Positions 56,560 through 64,000 of a stretch of DNA of 64,000 bases are shown here, piece after piece (within the stretch, counting starts at the first letter, position 1; the number at the start of each line of letters is the position of its first letter). The notes below the pieces were generated by a model. The model did not search any database. It was given only the letters and a program-made list of their open reading frames with translations, and had not been told where the DNA came from. This DNA comes from Candidatus Latescibacterota bacterium (GTDB taxonomy: Bacteria > Latescibacterota > UBA2968), in contig JAJEDY010000033.1 of the NCBI GenBank assembly GCA_022821275.1, positions 18,780-82,779 on the forward strand, in the 5' to 3' direction. The translations under genes and the position numbers were made by a program.

Positions 56560-56707
56560 TTGGCTTCCCATTTTAACGAATATAGGCACAGTGTCACAGA
56601 TTGACATTCAAGATAGAGTTGTATATTTTTGGGAAAAGATATTATGCTCTGTATTTTTTGCAAAGGACAATCACTCGAGGTTCAGGCCTATCAAAAGGAT
56701 CATTTCT

Positions 56708-56959
56708 ATGGAAGCGATAAAAATTAAAGCAATGTATCGGAACGGTGTGTTGGAACCAGAAGAACCTCTTGTTTTGTCTGAAGGTGAAAACGTTACGGTG
56801 ATTATAGAATCGCGCTCTGATTTTTCAGAAGAAAAAAAAATGCGATGTTTCCAAGCTGCTGCTGGTAGTTGGAAAGAGATTACAGATAAACATCTCGAAG
56901 AAGACATCTACAAGTTGCGCCGCTTGAGAACCCGCCCAGAGATAGAATCGTGGCAATAG
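56708..56959 (+). CDS. DUF104/AF2212-type antitoxin family protein
   Basis: MEAIKIKAMYRNGVLEPEEPLVLSEGENVTVIIE, typical DUF104 N-terminus. Confidence 0.75.
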   Translation: MEAIKIKAMYRNGVLEPEEPLVLSEGENVTVIIESRSDFSEEKKMRCFQAAAGSWKEITDKHLEEDIYKLRRLRTRPEIESWQ

Positions 56960-57250: not shown

Positions 57251-57362
57251 AGGATATCAAAAAATAACAATCCAAAGTGCGATTGTCAATGATTTAGACT
57301 GTACTATGTACTTGTGCAGACAGACAGGAGAAAATCTCGCACACACGAAGTCTAATTGGGGT

Positions 57363-58109
57363 ATGGAAAAGCAAAAAATTCTGATTATAGATCACGACCC
57401 CCGCGTTCTATCGACTCTTGCAGGATTTCTGAGCGATGAACCTTATGGCGTATTCACGGCGAGAAATGGAATAGAAGGCCTTGAAATTTTGAGACGAGAG
57501 CATATCCATCTCGTTTTTGCTGACAGAGGAGCAGATGGGCACAATGGGATAACCCTTTTGAAGGGGATGAAGGCAGAGAATATTCAGACCCCTATCCTGA
57601 TCATGGGGGAAGTTGCACCGATGGAATTAACCGAAAAAATAATCCGAGCAGGGGCGGTCAGCGTGGTCAATAAGCCCATTGAGAAGAACAGGTTTTTGGC
57701 TGAGGTCAAAACCCATATCCCGTCAGATTCGAGTTGGAAAATCGCGTTTGAAGCCTTTTTGGAGGCGCATTACAGCAATCCGGACCTCAAATTTAATGAT
57801 CTCAGAGACCATTTCAAACTTTCCAGAACGCACTTGAGTGCCTTATTCAAAAAGCATTGTGGCATGCCTTTCCGAGAAAAATTAAGAGAGATCAGAATTG
57901 CCCACGCAAAGCACTTAATAAGAGAACAATCCCTGTTGACCTATGAAGTTGCAAGTGTGTGTGGATTTCATTCCTCAAAGTATTTTTGTGAGGTTTTTAT
58001 GAAGGTAAATGATATGTCTCTTACCGCTTACCGCGCAAAAGTGAGATGCGAGAACCCTCTTCAAAAAAATTCATCGCGCGTAGATTTAGAGACTGAACGT
58101 GGCTCTTAG
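57363..58109 (+). CDS. Response regulator receiver domain with AraC-type HTH output
   Basis: KILIIDHDPRVLSTLAGFLSDEPYGVFTARNGIEGLEIL, LVFADRGADGHNGITLLKGMK; AraC HTH: FKLSRTHLSALFKKHCGMPFREKLREIRIAHAKHLIREQSLLTYEVASVCGFHSSKYFCEVF. Confidence 0.9.
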   Translation: MEKQKILIIDHDPRVLSTLAGFLSDEPYGVFTARNGIEGLEILRREHIHLVFADRGADGHNGITLLKGMKAENIQTPILIMGEVAPMELTEKIIRAGAVSVVNKPIEKNRFLAEVKTHIPSDSSWKIAFEAFLEAHYSNPDLKFNDLRDHFKLSRTHLSALFKKHCGMPFREKLREIRIAHAKHLIREQSLLTYEVASVCGFHSSKYFCEVFMKVNDMSLTAYRAKVRCENPLQKNSSRVDLETERGS

Positions 58110-58138
58110 ATCAAATTATAGGTCTTAGAAGTATCGTG

Positions 58139-59413
58139 ATGAAAAAAAAACGTATCGTTTTCTTCAGCCAACACTTTGTAGGTGTCGGTCATCACTTTAG
58201 AAACCTCCAGATCGTGCGTGCATTGGCGAAAAGCCATGACGTCTATTTTGTAGATGGTGGACGCGAAATCCACCGTATTGATATACCATCTGTTACAACC
58301 ATTCGTTTACCAGCCCTTTTTAAGGATTCAGAGTCCCAGCGTTTGGTGTGTGAAGATCCCAAATTCAGTCTGCGACAAGCTCAGGAAAAGCGCAAGCAAA
58401 TTCTCCTTGAAAAAATTGCACAGATACAGCCAGACATTTTCGTAATTGAGCTTTTTCCATTTGCCAGATCCATACTGTACAAAGAGTTAATTCCTGCTAT
58501 TCAAAGAGCGAGGACTATAAACCCAGAAGCAAAAGTGATTTGTTCCGTGCGTGAAATTATAAGAAAGACTCCTGAAAGAGAACTTTCTACAAAGAAACCA
58601 CCACATCCGGAAGCTTTGTTCTTCGTACCCAGAATGATTTGGTATGCAGTTTCTTTTTGGCGTAAGGGCGAGAGAAACAAAAGGTTGGCCCGATTGTATT
58701 ATGAGCGCGTTGTCCCTGTGTTGAATAATTATTTTGATTACGTCCTCATTCACGGCGATCCGAGATTTTTTCAATTGGAATCATTTTTTCCCTGGATAGA
58801 GAATATCGAGATTCCAATTGAATATACAGGTTATGTCTCAGAAAAATTAGAAATCTCTGATTCCGATACCCAAAAAGCGATAGACGAACAAGGGCCTTAT
58901 GTTTTGGTCAGTGTTGGTGGCGGTATCCTCGGATGGGATATGATTACAACAGCAGTGACTGCCTGGAAGATACTTTGCGAGCATGGTTACGTTCAGAATA
59001 TGAAGATGGTGATATTTGTAGGAGTTTTTATGAAGGACGATGAGTATGATGCGATAAAAGAAATGTGTACAGAAGATTCCTTTTATCTGTCGAGGTTCAC
59101 TAACAACTTTCTTCAGTGGATGCAGAGTGCGGAATTGTCTATCAGTCAGGCAGGTTATAATACGTGTATGAATGTCCTGGAGACAGGTGTGAAAGCTATT
59201 TTAGTACCGATTCCAGCAGAGAGAGACCTTGATCAAGCACCGCGAGCAAAGAAATTTTCAGAGTTAGGTATAGCGGATATGATACGCTCTGAAGGACTGA
59301 CATTAGAGCGAATGGCAAACGCGATTTTGGAGCGTTTAGAAAGCCCCCCGGTGAAACACAACATTGTGCTAAACGGAGCCGAGCGTACAGAGCAATTGTT
59401 GTCGAGCCTATAG
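58139..59413 (+). CDS. MurG/GT28-like glycosyltransferase
   Basis: FFSQHFVGVGHHFRNLQIVRALAKSHDVYFVDGG; C-terminal GGGILGWD...AELSISQAGYNTCMNVLETGVKAILVPIP. Confidence 0.82.
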   Translation: MKKKRIVFFSQHFVGVGHHFRNLQIVRALAKSHDVYFVDGGREIHRIDIPSVTTIRLPALFKDSESQRLVCEDPKFSLRQAQEKRKQILLEKIAQIQPDIFVIELFPFARSILYKELIPAIQRARTINPEAKVICSVREIIRKTPERELSTKKPPHPEALFFVPRMIWYAVSFWRKGERNKRLARLYYERVVPVLNNYFDYVLIHGDPRFFQLESFFPWIENIEIPIEYTGYVSEKLEISDSDTQKAIDEQGPYVLVSVGGGILGWDMITTAVTAWKILCEHGYVQNMKMVIFVGVFMKDDEYDAIKEMCTEDSFYLSRFTNNFLQWMQSAELSISQAGYNTCMNVLETGVKAILVPIPAERDLDQAPRAKKFSELGIADMIRSEGLTLERMANAILERLESPPVKHNIVLNGAERTEQLLSSL

Positions 59414-59472
59414 AGGCAACGCTTGGAGTGGTGTAAAACCTTGCCACTGATAAAAGAATAAAGTCTCCTGCT

Positions 59473-60666
59473 ATGCAAAACGGCCATACAACTGCTCCTA
59501 TAGATATTATAGATGATTTTAAGGGAACAGGTTTTGGATTTGTCAAACGATTTCTCCTGTTCATCTTGCTATCCGTTACTGCGTTGATTGCTGGTATCCT
59601 CTTTGTGGTGTGGAATGTCGGGATGAATGTAAATGTGGAAGGGACAGGTGTTGTGGAGCCTTCAGGCCGCTTTGAAGTGAAGACAAAGCTTTCGGAAATA
59701 ATAAGTGAAGTCTATGTCGATAGATGGGACAAAGTTGCAAAAGGAGATCGGCTCTTTAAGTTGGAAAGCAAAGATTGGAAAGCCGAATTGGAGAAAGTCA
59801 CCAAAGAGCAGGAAATTAACAGAAGCAGGATGGCAGAAATAGAAGAACAGATGAGATCAGAAAAAAAAGTTCTACAAAGTGAGATTCATCAAACGCAGTC
59901 CGAGATAGAGACCTTGCGTTTGCAACTGGAGCAAGTAGAACGGGAGTATCAACTCGGTCAAAAATACAATCTTGTGAATAGTAAGTCAGAAATTGATCAG
60001 TTGATACCTATCAGGCTGAAAAGATCCATGTTAAAACAGGCTCAAGCGAAATTACAAACAGACCGAGAAAGATTGGAAATGGTTGATCGCAGATACCAGG
60101 AAATTGAAACACTCCAAAAGATGAATCAAAAGCTGCGAGAAGACCAGCACATCTTGCTGCGTCGAATAGAAAATACAGTGGTTTACGCACCTCTATCTGG
60201 CACTGTGCTGACGGGCGATTTAGAACGGCGAGTTGGCGACCATCTCCAGATTGGAGAGACTGTGATAGAGCTTGCACGGCTGGATGATTGGCAGGCAAAA
60301 GTGATGATCAAAGAGACAGAGATTCACAAAGTAAAAGTTGGGCAACCCGTGAATCTTTTTGTAAACGCGTTTCCCCACATGGAATACAAAATTTTTGAGG
60401 GCGTCGTCACAGAAATTGCTGCACAACCCGTATCGACTAACCCCTCTCAGGAGGCGCAAGTTTATCCTACAAAAATAACGATTCAGAACCCCGAAATTTC
60501 TGTAAATCACAAGACCTACTCGCTTGCTTACGGCATGAGCGTTGAAGCGAAGATAGCCGTGGAAAAGGGAAGAATCCTCGATCTGATATGGAACCGGTTT
60601 CTTCGTACAGCGGGAAAAATTCCCGAACACGATTTCTATATTTTCGATCCCAAAAAGGCGAATTAA
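59473..60666 (+). CDS. HlyD-family membrane fusion/secretion protein
   Basis: N-terminal TM, coiled coil (ELEKVTKEQEINRSRMAEIEEQ), NTVVYAPLSGTVLTGDLERRVGDHLQIGETVIELARLDDWQAKVMIKE. Confidence 0.88.
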   Translation: MQNGHTTAPIDIIDDFKGTGFGFVKRFLLFILLSVTALIAGILFVVWNVGMNVNVEGTGVVEPSGRFEVKTKLSEIISEVYVDRWDKVAKGDRLFKLESKDWKAELEKVTKEQEINRSRMAEIEEQMRSEKKVLQSEIHQTQSEIETLRLQLEQVEREYQLGQKYNLVNSKSEIDQLIPIRLKRSMLKQAQAKLQTDRERLEMVDRRYQEIETLQKMNQKLREDQHILLRRIENTVVYAPLSGTVLTGDLERRVGDHLQIGETVIELARLDDWQAKVMIKETEIHKVKVGQPVNLFVNAFPHMEYKIFEGVVTEIAAQPVSTNPSQEAQVYPTKITIQNPEISVNHKTYSLAYGMSVEAKIAVEKGRILDLIWNRFLRTAGKIPEHDFYIFDPKKAN

Positions 60667-60834
60667 AAAAGAAAGGAGGAAATTCTGGGAGCACTTTTCT
60701 GTTGCCTCCCGCCTCGCCTTTAGGAATTGAAATAACCACAAGGAGAAGAGGAAAGACCGTCAATTTTTGAACATACTCTTTCAAAACTCAGGCAAAAAGA
60801 AAGAGCGTGTTTTTATTCTTTCAAGGAGGATATT

Positions 60835-61158
60835 ATGAAAACGCTTGTGAAACGCCTGCTGAGACCTTATCATCTGGAATTGGGATGGGTTGAAGCTTAT
60901 GGAGATGATGAAAAAACCATAGTTTATCAGACGACTGAGCCTACTACCTTCGTTAAAACTCCTGGTGATACCATTAAGGTTACGGGAACGGTCAAGCAAG
61001 GTAGAGTTGAGGCACCGGGAGATACAACTTGGTCAGAGCCAAAAAAGATTGAAATTACCGCGACCAAGGAGGATGTGAAGAAAGAAGCACCGTTCGGTAC
61101 AAAAGGTATAGTTGGTCGAATCTGGGATTGGGTAATGGATCAGATTGATGACACTTAA
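60835..61158 (+). CDS. 107 aa small protein of unknown function, possible export substrate
   Basis: Strong RBS (AAGGAGG) before ATG; lies between HlyD-like and C39-TPR genes; shares GTVxxG..DTT[WY] core with CDS 63387-63770. Confidence 0.72.
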   Translation: MKTLVKRLLRPYHLELGWVEAYGDDEKTIVYQTTEPTTFVKTPGDTIKVTGTVKQGRVEAPGDTTWSEPKKIEITATKEDVKKEAPFGTKGIVGRIWDWVMDQIDDT

Positions 61159-61222
61159 ATCGGTCTTGACCTCATTCCAATAATGCTGTCTTTTCGCTTT
61201 TTCTTGTGGCTTAAAATCCATT

Positions 61223-61279
61223 ATCGGGATCTATATTAATTTGATACCTACCCTACCTCAAATATAGGCCCCGATTTTT
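61223..61279 (+). terminator. Terminator-like hairpin after the 107 aa gene
   Basis: ATCGGG-at-CTATATT ... AATATAG-gc-CCCGAT then TTTT. Confidence 0.7.
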
Positions 61280-61296
61280 CAGTGGAGTTACAAGTG

Positions 61297-63372
61297 ATGG
61301 TTTTAAGCATGTGGAAACGAGTATCTATTCTATGCATTATCGCAGGTTTGATTCTGCTTTCTGCCTGTTCAAATAAGCTGGACAGCAAAATAGAAAGAGG
61401 CTTCGAATTATATGAGCAAGAAAATTATCCACAGGCTATTGAATTATTCCAAGAAGTTTTAAAAAATAATCCAGAAGATATTGATGTATTGGTGCTTCTG
61501 CAAGCTGCCTTTATTGGAATGGAAGACTATGATCAGTCCGTTGCATATGGAAAGGCTATATTAAGAACTAATCCTAATAATCAGACTACATACCATCAAC
61601 TGATCTATGCGTATAAAAGATTGGAGCGATATGAAGATGCGATTAGCTGTTACGAAAGTCTGCTCGCGCTCTCACCGGAGGATGTGGAAGTAAATGGACA
61701 TCTTGGCTTACTTTTGGCAGGACAAGGCCGATATGAAAAGGCAATTCAATATTTAAAAGAAACACTGCGTTTGAAAGGAGAAGATACCTTCATTCTACGG
61801 GTACTTGCGATATGTCTTATGAGATTGCAGCGATATGAGCAGGCGGTAGATGCGTTTAATCGGATTATCAAAACGGAAAAAACGCCTGAACTGTTGGCTA
61901 AAGCAAGGCTCAAGATCGGTGATGTGTATTACGCAATGGGAAAACATGGCAAAGCCATTGAGAATTATTCTATGATTGAGTTGGAACATGATCAAGCCAC
62001 TTATCAACAAGCGCAACACTACATAAGATCGCTAAATAATGTGCCTGATGATGCAAAAAGAAAAATCATCGATGGTGTTCCCTTTCCCCCTCGAGGCTAC
62101 ATCGTGCAGACACTGGGTGCGTGCGGTTCTGCAACCCTCAAAGTGGCATTAAATTTTCTCAACGATTCGGTCTCCCAGAAATCAATCGCAGAGAAAATAG
62201 GAGATGATGATGGCACTACTCCTTATGCCCTGTGGAATTTTGCTGTTGAAAGAGGATTTCAAGCCTATCTGGGCGTAGCAGACCTTCCAAAAATTAAATA
62301 TTGGGTCAATCGAGGCTACCCAGTTCTTGTACTCATTCTTGAACCCGAATACGGTTATGGGCATTTCACATTGGTTGTGGGGTATGACGAACTTAAAGAC
62401 ATCATCATTTCTTATGATGTACTTCACTGGATTTATAACCGAGAAATTCCCACTGCTGATTTTCAACATGCCTGGAATTATTATGACCGATCTTCGCTAT
62501 TCATCTTTCCCAGAGGTGTTGATTTGCCTCATAACTTCGAAACAAATATTTATGCACAAAATTGTTTGCAAACTGACAGAGGTGGATTTCTATACGACCA
62601 GGGAAATAAAGAAGATGCTTTCATGGAACTTGAGGCGGCAGTATTGAATCAGCCGCCTTTGCCAAGCACTTATGTCTTACTTGCCAAACTTTATGCAAAT
62701 GAAAATGATCCAATAAAAAATGCAAAAGCAGATCAATACCTTTCAACTGCTCTTTCAATGAGTCCCACAAATGGTGCTACTTTGTTACAAGCAGGAATAT
62801 TTTATCGCATCCGCAATGAAAACGCAAAAGCAACTTCTATATTCAAAAAGGGATTGGAACTTTATCCAAACGCTTATGAACTGCGTAAAGAATTGGCCTC
62901 GCACTATCTCAAAATACGAGATTATACCAATGCAATAATTGAGTTGGAAAAGCAAAAGACACATTGTAAACGAACAACTTACTGTCGCGATCAAAAGCAA
63001 ATCAATAACGGTCTTTTCGTAAGCAATATATTTTTAAGTGACTATGGAAAAGCCATTGAGGCAAATCAAGAGCTTATAGAACTATCATCCACATTAGAGG
63101 AAAAATTTCAAGCCCTTAAAAAACACACAGCTTTAGGCATCTTGCACAAACAGCCTGAAGTAGCAAAAGAATCTCTGCATCAAATTTTGGCTCTTTTGCC
63201 CCAAGATGATCCAAGAAGACAGGATAGTAACGACTTGCTTCAGGCTATGGATGAAGTGGGAACTGTTGTGGATGTGGAATTTGAGAAGAATTTGGAGCGT
63301 GGAGAAGCTAATTTTAGCATTCTCATCCTAAAATCCAAGGCGGTTGCAGACTCTATTGTCCACGCGAATTGA
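61297..63372 (+). CDS. TPR lipoprotein with internal C39-like cysteine peptidase domain
   Basis: Lipobox LLSAC; TPR arrays before and after; YIVQTLGACGSATLKVALNFL (Cys) and YGHFTLVVGYDELKDIIISYD (His/Asp) typical of C39-like domains. Confidence 0.82.
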   Translation: MVLSMWKRVSILCIIAGLILLSACSNKLDSKIERGFELYEQENYPQAIELFQEVLKNNPEDIDVLVLLQAAFIGMEDYDQSVAYGKAILRTNPNNQTTYHQLIYAYKRLERYEDAISCYESLLALSPEDVEVNGHLGLLLAGQGRYEKAIQYLKETLRLKGEDTFILRVLAICLMRLQRYEQAVDAFNRIIKTEKTPELLAKARLKIGDVYYAMGKHGKAIENYSMIELEHDQATYQQAQHYIRSLNNVPDDAKRKIIDGVPFPPRGYIVQTLGACGSATLKVALNFLNDSVSQKSIAEKIGDDDGTTPYALWNFAVERGFQAYLGVADLPKIKYWVNRGYPVLVLILEPEYGYGHFTLVVGYDELKDIIISYDVLHWIYNREIPTADFQHAWNYYDRSSLFIFPRGVDLPHNFETNIYAQNCLQTDRGGFLYDQGNKEDAFMELEAAVLNQPPLPSTYVLLAKLYANENDPIKNAKADQYLSTALSMSPTNGATLLQAGIFYRIRNENAKATSIFKKGLELYPNAYELRKELASHYLKIRDYTNAIIELEKQKTHCKRTTYCRDQKQINNGLFVSNIFLSDYGKAIEANQELIELSSTLEEKFQALKKHTALGILHKQPEVAKESLHQILALLPQDDPRRQDSNDLLQAMDEVGTVVDVEFEKNLERGEANFSILILKSKAVADSIVHAN

Positions 63373-63386
63373 GAGGAGATTTACAC

Positions 63387-63770
63387 ATGCGGAAACGACT
63401 ATCTATTCTATGCATGATCGCGGGTTTCGTTCTGTTTGCCAGTTGCGATGAGCCTGATTCATCGGGCGTCCTGGTGGTAAAGCTTGAGAATATGACTATA
63501 GCACATCATGTAGATTCGATCAGAGTCAGTGGCACTGTAATTCGGGGTAAAATTACAAACGATGGTCGAGATACAACCTATACAGATACCACGCTTGTTC
63601 ATAATTTGGTTATTACCCAGAGTGAAATTCAGAGTGAAATCCATAAGGAGGAAGTGGGTAAAATTTGGGAAGAGTTGCTGACATATCTCGTATGGGATAT
63701 GGCTCATAGATACATGGATACCCTTGAAACTAAGACTGAAACTGATACGAAGGATGAAAAAATTAAGTGA
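63387..63770 (+). CDS. Small lipoprotein related to the 107 aa protein
   Basis: MRKRLSILCMIAGFVLFASC lipobox; DSIRVSGTVIRGKITNDGRDTTYTD core matches DTIKVTGTVKQGRVEAPGDTTWSE. Confidence 0.72.
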   Translation: MRKRLSILCMIAGFVLFASCDEPDSSGVLVVKLENMTIAHHVDSIRVSGTVIRGKITNDGRDTTYTDTTLVHNLVITQSEIQSEIHKEEVGKIWEELLTYLVWDMAHRYMDTLETKTETDTKDEKIK

Positions 63771-63818
63771 AATTTTTCAGGTTAGGATAGAACTTTTTGG
63801 CAGTGTCTGGAGGGTATC

Positions 63819-64000
63819 TTGCAGAAGATTGCACATATCTTATCATTGCTGCGTGGACATCGAAAGATGATCATACAGACCTTGTGTGTCAGTGCCTTTC
63901 TGATTCTCTTCTCCCTTCTCCCACCCTACTTTACAAAAGTTCTCATCGATAATGTATATCACACTAAAGACGCGAATTTACTTTATGTCGTCCTTGTTTC
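63819..64000 (+). CDS. ABC exporter transmembrane domain, 5' end only (runs off window)
   Basis: TTG start with GGAGGG upstream; LQKIAHILSLLRGHRKMIIQTLCVSAFLILFSLLPPYFTKVLIDNVYHTKDANLLYVVLV matches type-1 exporter N-terminus. Confidence 0.75.
   Translation, partial: MQKIAHILSLLRGHRKMIIQTLCVSAFLILFSLLPPYFTKVLIDNVYHTKDANLLYVVLV

Follow-up and report, generated by a model that had tools for sequence, protein, structure and literature searches.

A putative RiPP-like export cassette in Latescibacterota, probably related to known bacteriocin systems, without the usual modifying enzymes

Introduction

The SacP23 cassette of Paenibacillus polymyxa encodes a precursor, an ATP-binding cassette (ABC) exporter, a radical S-adenosylmethionine (SAM) enzyme, a TIGR04066 protein, an acyl carrier protein (ACP)-related protein and a subtilase, and the leader of its precursor reads MRKLVKRSTNVGDTIEAFG (PMC10731318). 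A cluster in Roseburia intestinalis is built like the SacP23 cassette, minus an obvious precursor (PMC4573289). A subtilase also precedes export in quinohemoprotein amine dehydrogenase maturation, where QhpE cuts a 28-residue leader from QhpC while this protein is still in the cytoplasm, ahead of its export by an ABC transporter (PMC7876137). Here we describe a locus at the end of a 64-kb stretch of Latescibacterota DNA (hereafter the window; C20:18780-82779 of G000, a 5.66-Mb genome), which encodes a 107-aa protein, an HlyD-type adaptor, an ABC exporter and, just past the window, a subtilase. We consider it likely that this is a cassette resembling those for ribosomally synthesized and post-translationally modified peptides (RiPPs), in which the subtilase would remove a leader and the HlyD/ABC machinery would then export the core. 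It is probably one of a group that is widespread yet little studied and that is akin to the known modified-peptide (bacteriocin) systems, without the usual modifying enzymes.

SacP23 and the Roseburia cluster are examples of the CLI_3235 class of sactipeptide cassettes (TIGR04065-TIGR04069), for which TIGR04066 is a marker. The cassette shares with this class a leader of the form M[KR]xLVKR...[VI]EA[YF]G, a subtilase, an ABC exporter and a precursor, and it has a TIGR04066-type domain that scores below the cut-off of the family. It differs from that class in that it has no radical SAM maturase or ACP-related protein, its core is long and Cys-free rather than Cys-rich, and its subtilase and TIGR04066 domain are joined in one protein with a degenerate P-loop. 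In addition, it has an HlyD adaptor, a tetratricopeptide repeat (TPR) lipoprotein with a C39-like domain, and a small lipoprotein paralogous to the precursor. Because the radical SAM enzyme, the ACP-related protein and the Cys-rich core are all missing, we do not file the cassette as a member of the class; it is a variant of the CLI_3235/TIGR04066 kind that would work like one minus the modification step.

Three other systems invite comparison. The pairing of a QhpE-like subtilase with an ABC exporter is common to the cassette and to QhpE/QhpF (PMC7876137), whereas the substrate is unrelated, the TIGR04066 domain is extra, and the qhp structural genes (qhpABC) and qhpD, which encodes QhpD, are absent from the locus, an absence that led us to reject amine dehydrogenase maturation as its function. 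Clo7bot/FlmE-OhkG systems (TIGR04333, TIGR04334, NF052473) are approached by one relative, L095, whose maturase is of the FlmE/OhkG type and whose precursor is weakly Clo7bot-like, while the window cassette has neither a radical SAM enzyme nor Cys in its core; a literature search for FlmE/OhkG returned nothing on point. Finally, double-glycine C39-ABC export (PF03412) likewise uses HlyD and ABC components to export a small protein, and genome G007 has such a cassette at the same chromosomal site. The window's ABC protein, however, has no C39 domain and the leader is not of the double-glycine type; we rejected a double-glycine substrate, as the 107-aa protein has no GG motif.

Results

The 107-aa protein begins with a recognizable leader (approximately residues 1-23, MKTLVKRLLRPYHLELGWVEAYG), followed by a Cys-free core of ~84 aa. 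The elements MKTLVKR...VEAYG of this leader match MRKLVKR...IEAFG of SacP23, and the protein is likely a precursor, although no NCBIfam model matched it. We scanned 43 loci, nearly all carrying a subtilase-TIGR04066 gene, for open reading frames (ORFs) that combined a Shine-Dalgarno-like site with the leader pattern. The pattern occurred 33 times in 25 of these loci, among 1438 candidate starts, and it was absent from 2709 candidate starts in subtilase loci of other phyla and from 821 in reversed DNA; across the 64-kb window its single match is the 107-aa gene. Given that at least one match (L070:15889) is seemingly accidental, that L062 duplicates the window locus, and that the pattern was drawn partly from the sequences scanned, these counts illustrate rather than prove, yet the zero controls are still telling. 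A search for the leader in the Tumebacillus and Clostridia relatives (L106, L109 and L112) gave no convincing precursor.

The cores behind the leader were highly varied across loci, being Cys-containing, hydrophobic or, as in the window, long and Cys-free. Two loci each held four related precursor genes with the same leader type, those at L085:17275-18812 with hydrophobic cores and those at L092:154-11790 with Cys-containing ones. In an AlphaFold2 (AF2) model of the window precursor, built from two sequences, the leader (residues 1-26) was disordered, with a predicted local distance difference test score (pLDDT) below 50, and the core, mostly at 70-80, was strand-rich with a C-terminal helix, so that the core is probably folded. 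A fold search with this model gave no usable match (best E 0.02, TM 0.27), and no homologues of the precursor or the small lipoprotein were found outside G000 and G004 in 64 genomes of the phylum, other than one match at E 0.09.

Directly downstream of the exporter lies a gene for a protein whose N-terminal half matches the QhpE model (1.6e-39), with the Asp/His/Ser motifs intact, and whose C-terminal half matches TIGR04066 (3.3e-16). Judged by its domains and position, this cytoplasmic subtilase is most likely the leader peptidase. In this phylum, the subtilase and TIGR04066 are joined in one protein. A TIGR04066-like domain, always scoring below the cut-off, was present in 35 of 64 phylum genomes, several copies in some, whereas 14 control genomes had none. 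Matches in phages and plasmids were confined to the generic subtilase part, at ~26-33% identity among those listed. We found no established role for TIGR04066/DUF1611 or for the carrier protein of these cassettes (see below), and literature on DUF1611 together with RiPPs yielded nothing on point.

We read ~32 kb around and past the window end (L006; an L006 position is the window position minus 56920). The genes of the locus are as follows.

57306-58109, plus strand: receiver-AraC regulator of the site, DNA-binding (Response_reg 1.5e-17, HTH_18 5.5e-16)
58136-59413, plus strand: GT28 (MurG-like) glycosyltransferase, candidate modifying enzyme (Glyco_tran_28_C 1.4e-14; TIGR01133 murG 1e-9, far under its cut-off)
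59473-60666, plus strand: HlyD-type membrane-fusion protein, the periplasmic adaptor (domain search)
60835-61158, plus strand: 107-aa precursor protein (AAGGAGG upstream; leader pattern)
61309 (ATG)-63372, plus strand: lipoprotein with TPR, C39-like domain and TPR, in that order (PF13529 5.3e-9)
63387-63770, plus strand: small lipoprotein, candidate immunity protein (core domain of the precursor behind a lipoprotein signal)
From 63819, with 182 bases inside the window (L006:6899-8602), plus strand: ABC exporter, 567 aa (ABC_membrane, ABC_tran)
L006:8599-10452, past the window, sharing 4 bases with the end of the ABC gene: QhpE-like subtilase (S8) with a fused TIGR04066/DUF1611 domain, 617 aa
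L006:10513-11607, past the window, after the subtilase gene: GT4 glycosyltransferase of the site

Beyond the GT4 gene, the opposite strand carries an unrelated operon for a dipeptide-type transporter. Small toxin-antitoxin-like genes, recognized by eye without a family search, adjoin the cassette in two species (window 56591-56959 and L185:16222-16879).

The original prediction, made from the window alone, had set out the genes from regulator to exporter in this order, and gene calls and domain searches recovered all of them, every one on the plus strand. Its picture of a peptide-export system was supported in that the locus looks like an HlyD/ABC peptide-export cassette; the exporter and the membrane-fusion protein share an operon with the candidate substrate gene. 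The exporter also lacks a C39 domain of its own, as had been supposed from its first residues: read to its end past the window, the gene encodes ABC_membrane and ABC_tran as its only full domains. The candidate substrate was correctly described as free of Cys and of a double-glycine leader, yet it has the other leader described above. The label "undescribed" holds for the Latescibacterota cassettes, for which a search of titles and abstracts found no paper; in Firmicutes, however, the CLI_3235/TIGR04066 cassette, to which they are related, has already been published. The expectation that the genes would be co-conserved was borne out in part: throughout the phylum, the same loci combine a precursor, an ABC exporter and a subtilase, with HlyD at some of them, while the TPR/C39-like protein was found in four genomes only.

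Relatives of the cassette carry functions that the window locus has lost or lacks. Of 44 relatives, 18 encode a carrier protein of ~90 aa (PP-binding 1.5e-11) no more than 4 kb from the subtilase, according to a BLAST count that misses divergent copies, and a BtrH-like protein is found near the subtilase in fewer. In L069, L071, L073 and L063, the carrier protein and a ~340-aa BtrH-like protein (PF14399 3e-5, below the cut-off) adjoin the subtilase, and the pair suggests an acyl-transfer modification of the peptide in those loci. The TIGR04066 part contains the P-loop GTSxQQGKFT in 39 of the 44 proteins scanned; at this stretch, the window protein has the degenerate sequence STQAHCDTFR. The other exceptions are L062, which is the near-identical G004 copy, L083, which is changed, and L090 and L140, which are probably fused or shifted frames. 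Pfam recognized DUF1611_C in the relatives tested and not in the window protein. No ACP-related protein (TIGR04069) was found in the window locus, nor was a radical SAM maturase (TIGR04068 or similar), sought as a CxxxCxxC protein of 250-900 aa. Radical SAM enzymes are rare among the relatives as well. One occurs at L095:5603-10734 (G046), where a maturase of the FlmE/OhkG type (NF052473, 2.2e-116) lies beside a subtilase-TIGR04066 gene and an ACP-like gene, and where the precursor contains Cys and has the same leader type as the window precursor; this combination links radical-SAM cassettes with subtilase-TIGR04066 cassettes.

The cassette appears to be mobile. A 9.6-kb block (~L006:1000-10600) is ~99.8% identical between G000 and G004, which are listed as different species of one genus, compared with 89-94% identity in its flanks. 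The block spans from the end of the regulator gene, most of which lies outside it, to the start of the GT4 gene, and it includes the GT28, HlyD, precursor, ABC and subtilase genes and those of both lipoproteins; in G004, its sequence lies on two contigs. The G+C content of the block is 42%, against 52% in window positions 1-56500. The stretch from GT28 to subtilase is the apparent unit of exchange between species. The island has a hydrolase gene on one side and a gene for a dipeptide transporter on the other, and the site is empty in G005, as these two genes are adjacent there; G002 has a short insert at the same site. Regulators that are ~90% identical stand before different cassettes at this site. 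With the same regulator, L185 (G007:C1:5207500-5225500) has a GT4-GT28 fusion, a 132-aa protein with an NVQGG motif, a cNMP-C39-ABC exporter of 1018 aa, HlyD, a rotamase and a UDP-GlcNAc 2-epimerase. A third cassette type at this site, L189 (G003:C153:5000-11603), consists of HlyD, a 101-aa protein, a CAAX-protease-like protein, ABC and GT4; its ABC protein is 62% identical to that of the window, and no subtilase was seen in it.

The small lipoprotein looks like the precursor core set behind a lipoprotein signal, since its C-terminal domain is homologous to that core and its signal peptide is similar to the one on the TPR lipoprotein, with 48 of 66 bases identical. The paralogy that had been noted from the window stood up to shuffling: the local alignment score of 73 was reached in 0 of 5000 shuffles, whose maximum was 58. 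Asp-Glu directly follows the lipid Cys. In enterobacteria, Asp-Glu at this position leads to retention in the inner membrane, and it would do so here if the rule extends to this phylum. The simplest interpretation of this protein is immunity, which makes it a candidate for that role. It is also possible, though rather unlikely, that the last step is not antagonism and that the core has a surface or structural role, with the lipoprotein paralogue as its membrane-bound partner or assembly factor. For a modified peptide antibiotic, a folded, Cys-free core of this size is large; the cassette has glycosyltransferases on its flanks; a scaffold function is conceivable for the TPR lipoprotein; and cassettes at the site differ between species, as is seen for surface loci. 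However, the cores of relatives are short, diverse and often Cys-containing or strongly hydrophobic, as is typical of bioactive peptides, and interspecies exchange and a paralogous lipoprotein fit the logic of toxin and immunity equally well.

A further alternative concerns the GT28 enzyme, which might glycosylate the core in the cytoplasm before export, in which case modification would have been swapped rather than lost. The gene lies inside the exchanged block, and homologues with 41-44% identity occur in cassettes L058, L063 and L185-L187, among them subtilase cassettes (L058, L063) and double-glycine cassettes at the same site. Most subtilase cassettes nevertheless lack GT28, no acceptor site can be named, and the usual substrates of MurG-like enzymes are lipid-linked sugars, so we consider this alternative unlikely.

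The original prediction had the C39-like domain of the TPR lipoprotein stand in for the peptidase that the exporter lacks. The domain is indeed located on the lipoprotein, separate from the exporter, and it matches PF13529 above the cut-off and PF03412 with 23.7 bits against 22. Its catalytic residues are complete, as a comparison by eye with four canonical C39 domains from G000 places C281, H361, D379 and the oxyanion residue Q276 (numbered from the ORF start at 61282) in register with theirs. The closest NCBIfam peptidase family is the PA2778-family cysteine peptidase (NF033920, 2.7e-16), which also has a C39-like domain followed by a TPR part; the lipoprotein scores 59.7 against a cut-off of 150 and differs in its extra N-terminal TPR block and its linkage to an exporter cassette. 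A PDB sequence search with the C39-like region gave no match, the literature on PA2778 with C39 held nothing on point, and a single-sequence AF2 model of the lipoprotein (mean pLDDT 47) was not used.

Besides the G004 protein, the only homologues of this C39-like domain among 60 relatives searched were in G003 and G009, which makes four genomes of one genus in all, and both have lost the catalytic Cys, so that the triad is not conserved in comparable loci. The Cys-less G009 homologue sits in a cassette with a regulator, HlyD, ABC and a 124-aa precursor-like protein starting MVKLKKKRPMSYKFTGKIARAY. In L069, L071 and L073, of the same genus, the cassette contains a TPR protein without C39; thus, a TPR protein seems to be a regular component of cassettes in this genus, one that can do without peptidase activity. 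Since the two sister-genome homologues have lost the Cys, the lipoprotein is probably an accessory and not the leader peptidase. That its domain processes the exported precursor in the periplasm is therefore quite improbable, despite the intact triad and the position of the gene between precursor and exporter inside the exchanged block: a dedicated subtilase is encoded beside the exporter, most cassettes of the family lack a C39-like lipoprotein, and the precursor offers a C39 enzyme no GG motif. The proposed stand-in role was not borne out, and the adjacent subtilase is favored.

Lastly, the replaced P-loop, seen only in the window lineage among the full domains compared, and the missing carrier protein could mark a decaying pseudo-system, which we regard as very improbable given that all frames are open, that the subtilase and the C39-like domain retain their catalytic residues, that the ABC domains are intact, and that the block was exchanged recently, with few mismatches between the two species.

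Discussion

The domains, gene order, leader similarity, paralogy, P-loop loss and interspecies exchange described here are read from the DNA itself, and they suggest the following route. The 107-aa protein would carry a CLI_3235-type leader at its N-terminus, with a K/R-rich start followed by [VI]EA[YF]G, and the QhpE-like subtilase, by homology, would strip this leader in the cytoplasm. The Cys-free core of ~84 aa would then leave through the ABC transporter and the HlyD adaptor, and the small lipoprotein, displaying the same domain at the periplasmic face, would probably serve as an immunity or decoy protein, with the TPR/C39-like lipoprotein as a periplasmic accessory. Leader cleavage, export and immunity, and a product that acts on competitors, are what we infer from these features. 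The ancestry of the locus probably lies in cassettes that also modify the core chemically. Because the carrier protein, the radical SAM enzyme and the TIGR04066 P-loop are absent or decayed here, the core would be exported unmodified or, at most, glycosylated by GT28.

Several points weigh against this proposal. The QhpE model score (135.5) is under its cut-off of 165, and the TIGR04066 score (59.2) is far under its cut-off of 200. The leader pattern was defined after a handful of the sequences had been seen, and 18 of the 43 loci have no match to it. The precursor and small-lipoprotein families are present in only 2 of 64 phylum genomes. Export and the cleavage site are predictions, the argument for immunity is paralogy, and we know of no biochemistry for any member in this phylum.

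The chromosomal site presents one place and one regulator at which two export chemistries swap, being empty in one species and occupied elsewhere by a double-glycine C39 cassette or, in two species, by the subtilase cassette. With the leader pattern, precursors can be located easily in this uncultured phylum, however much their cores differ. More tentatively, and with somewhat less than even confidence, we suggest that Latescibacterota harbor a large, mobile, mostly radical-SAM-free class of leader-peptide systems built on the fused subtilase-DUF1611 protein. In the window lineage, this class would have been reduced to leader-dependent export of a small protein that is folded and unmodified, and a lipoprotein carrying the same domain would serve as immunity. 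A lineage with leader, subtilase and exporter that lacks the P-loop and carrier protein is a natural experiment separating leader removal and export from modification and, if this suggestion is true, it would mark a path by which RiPP biosynthesis can turn into the secretion of an ordinary protein.

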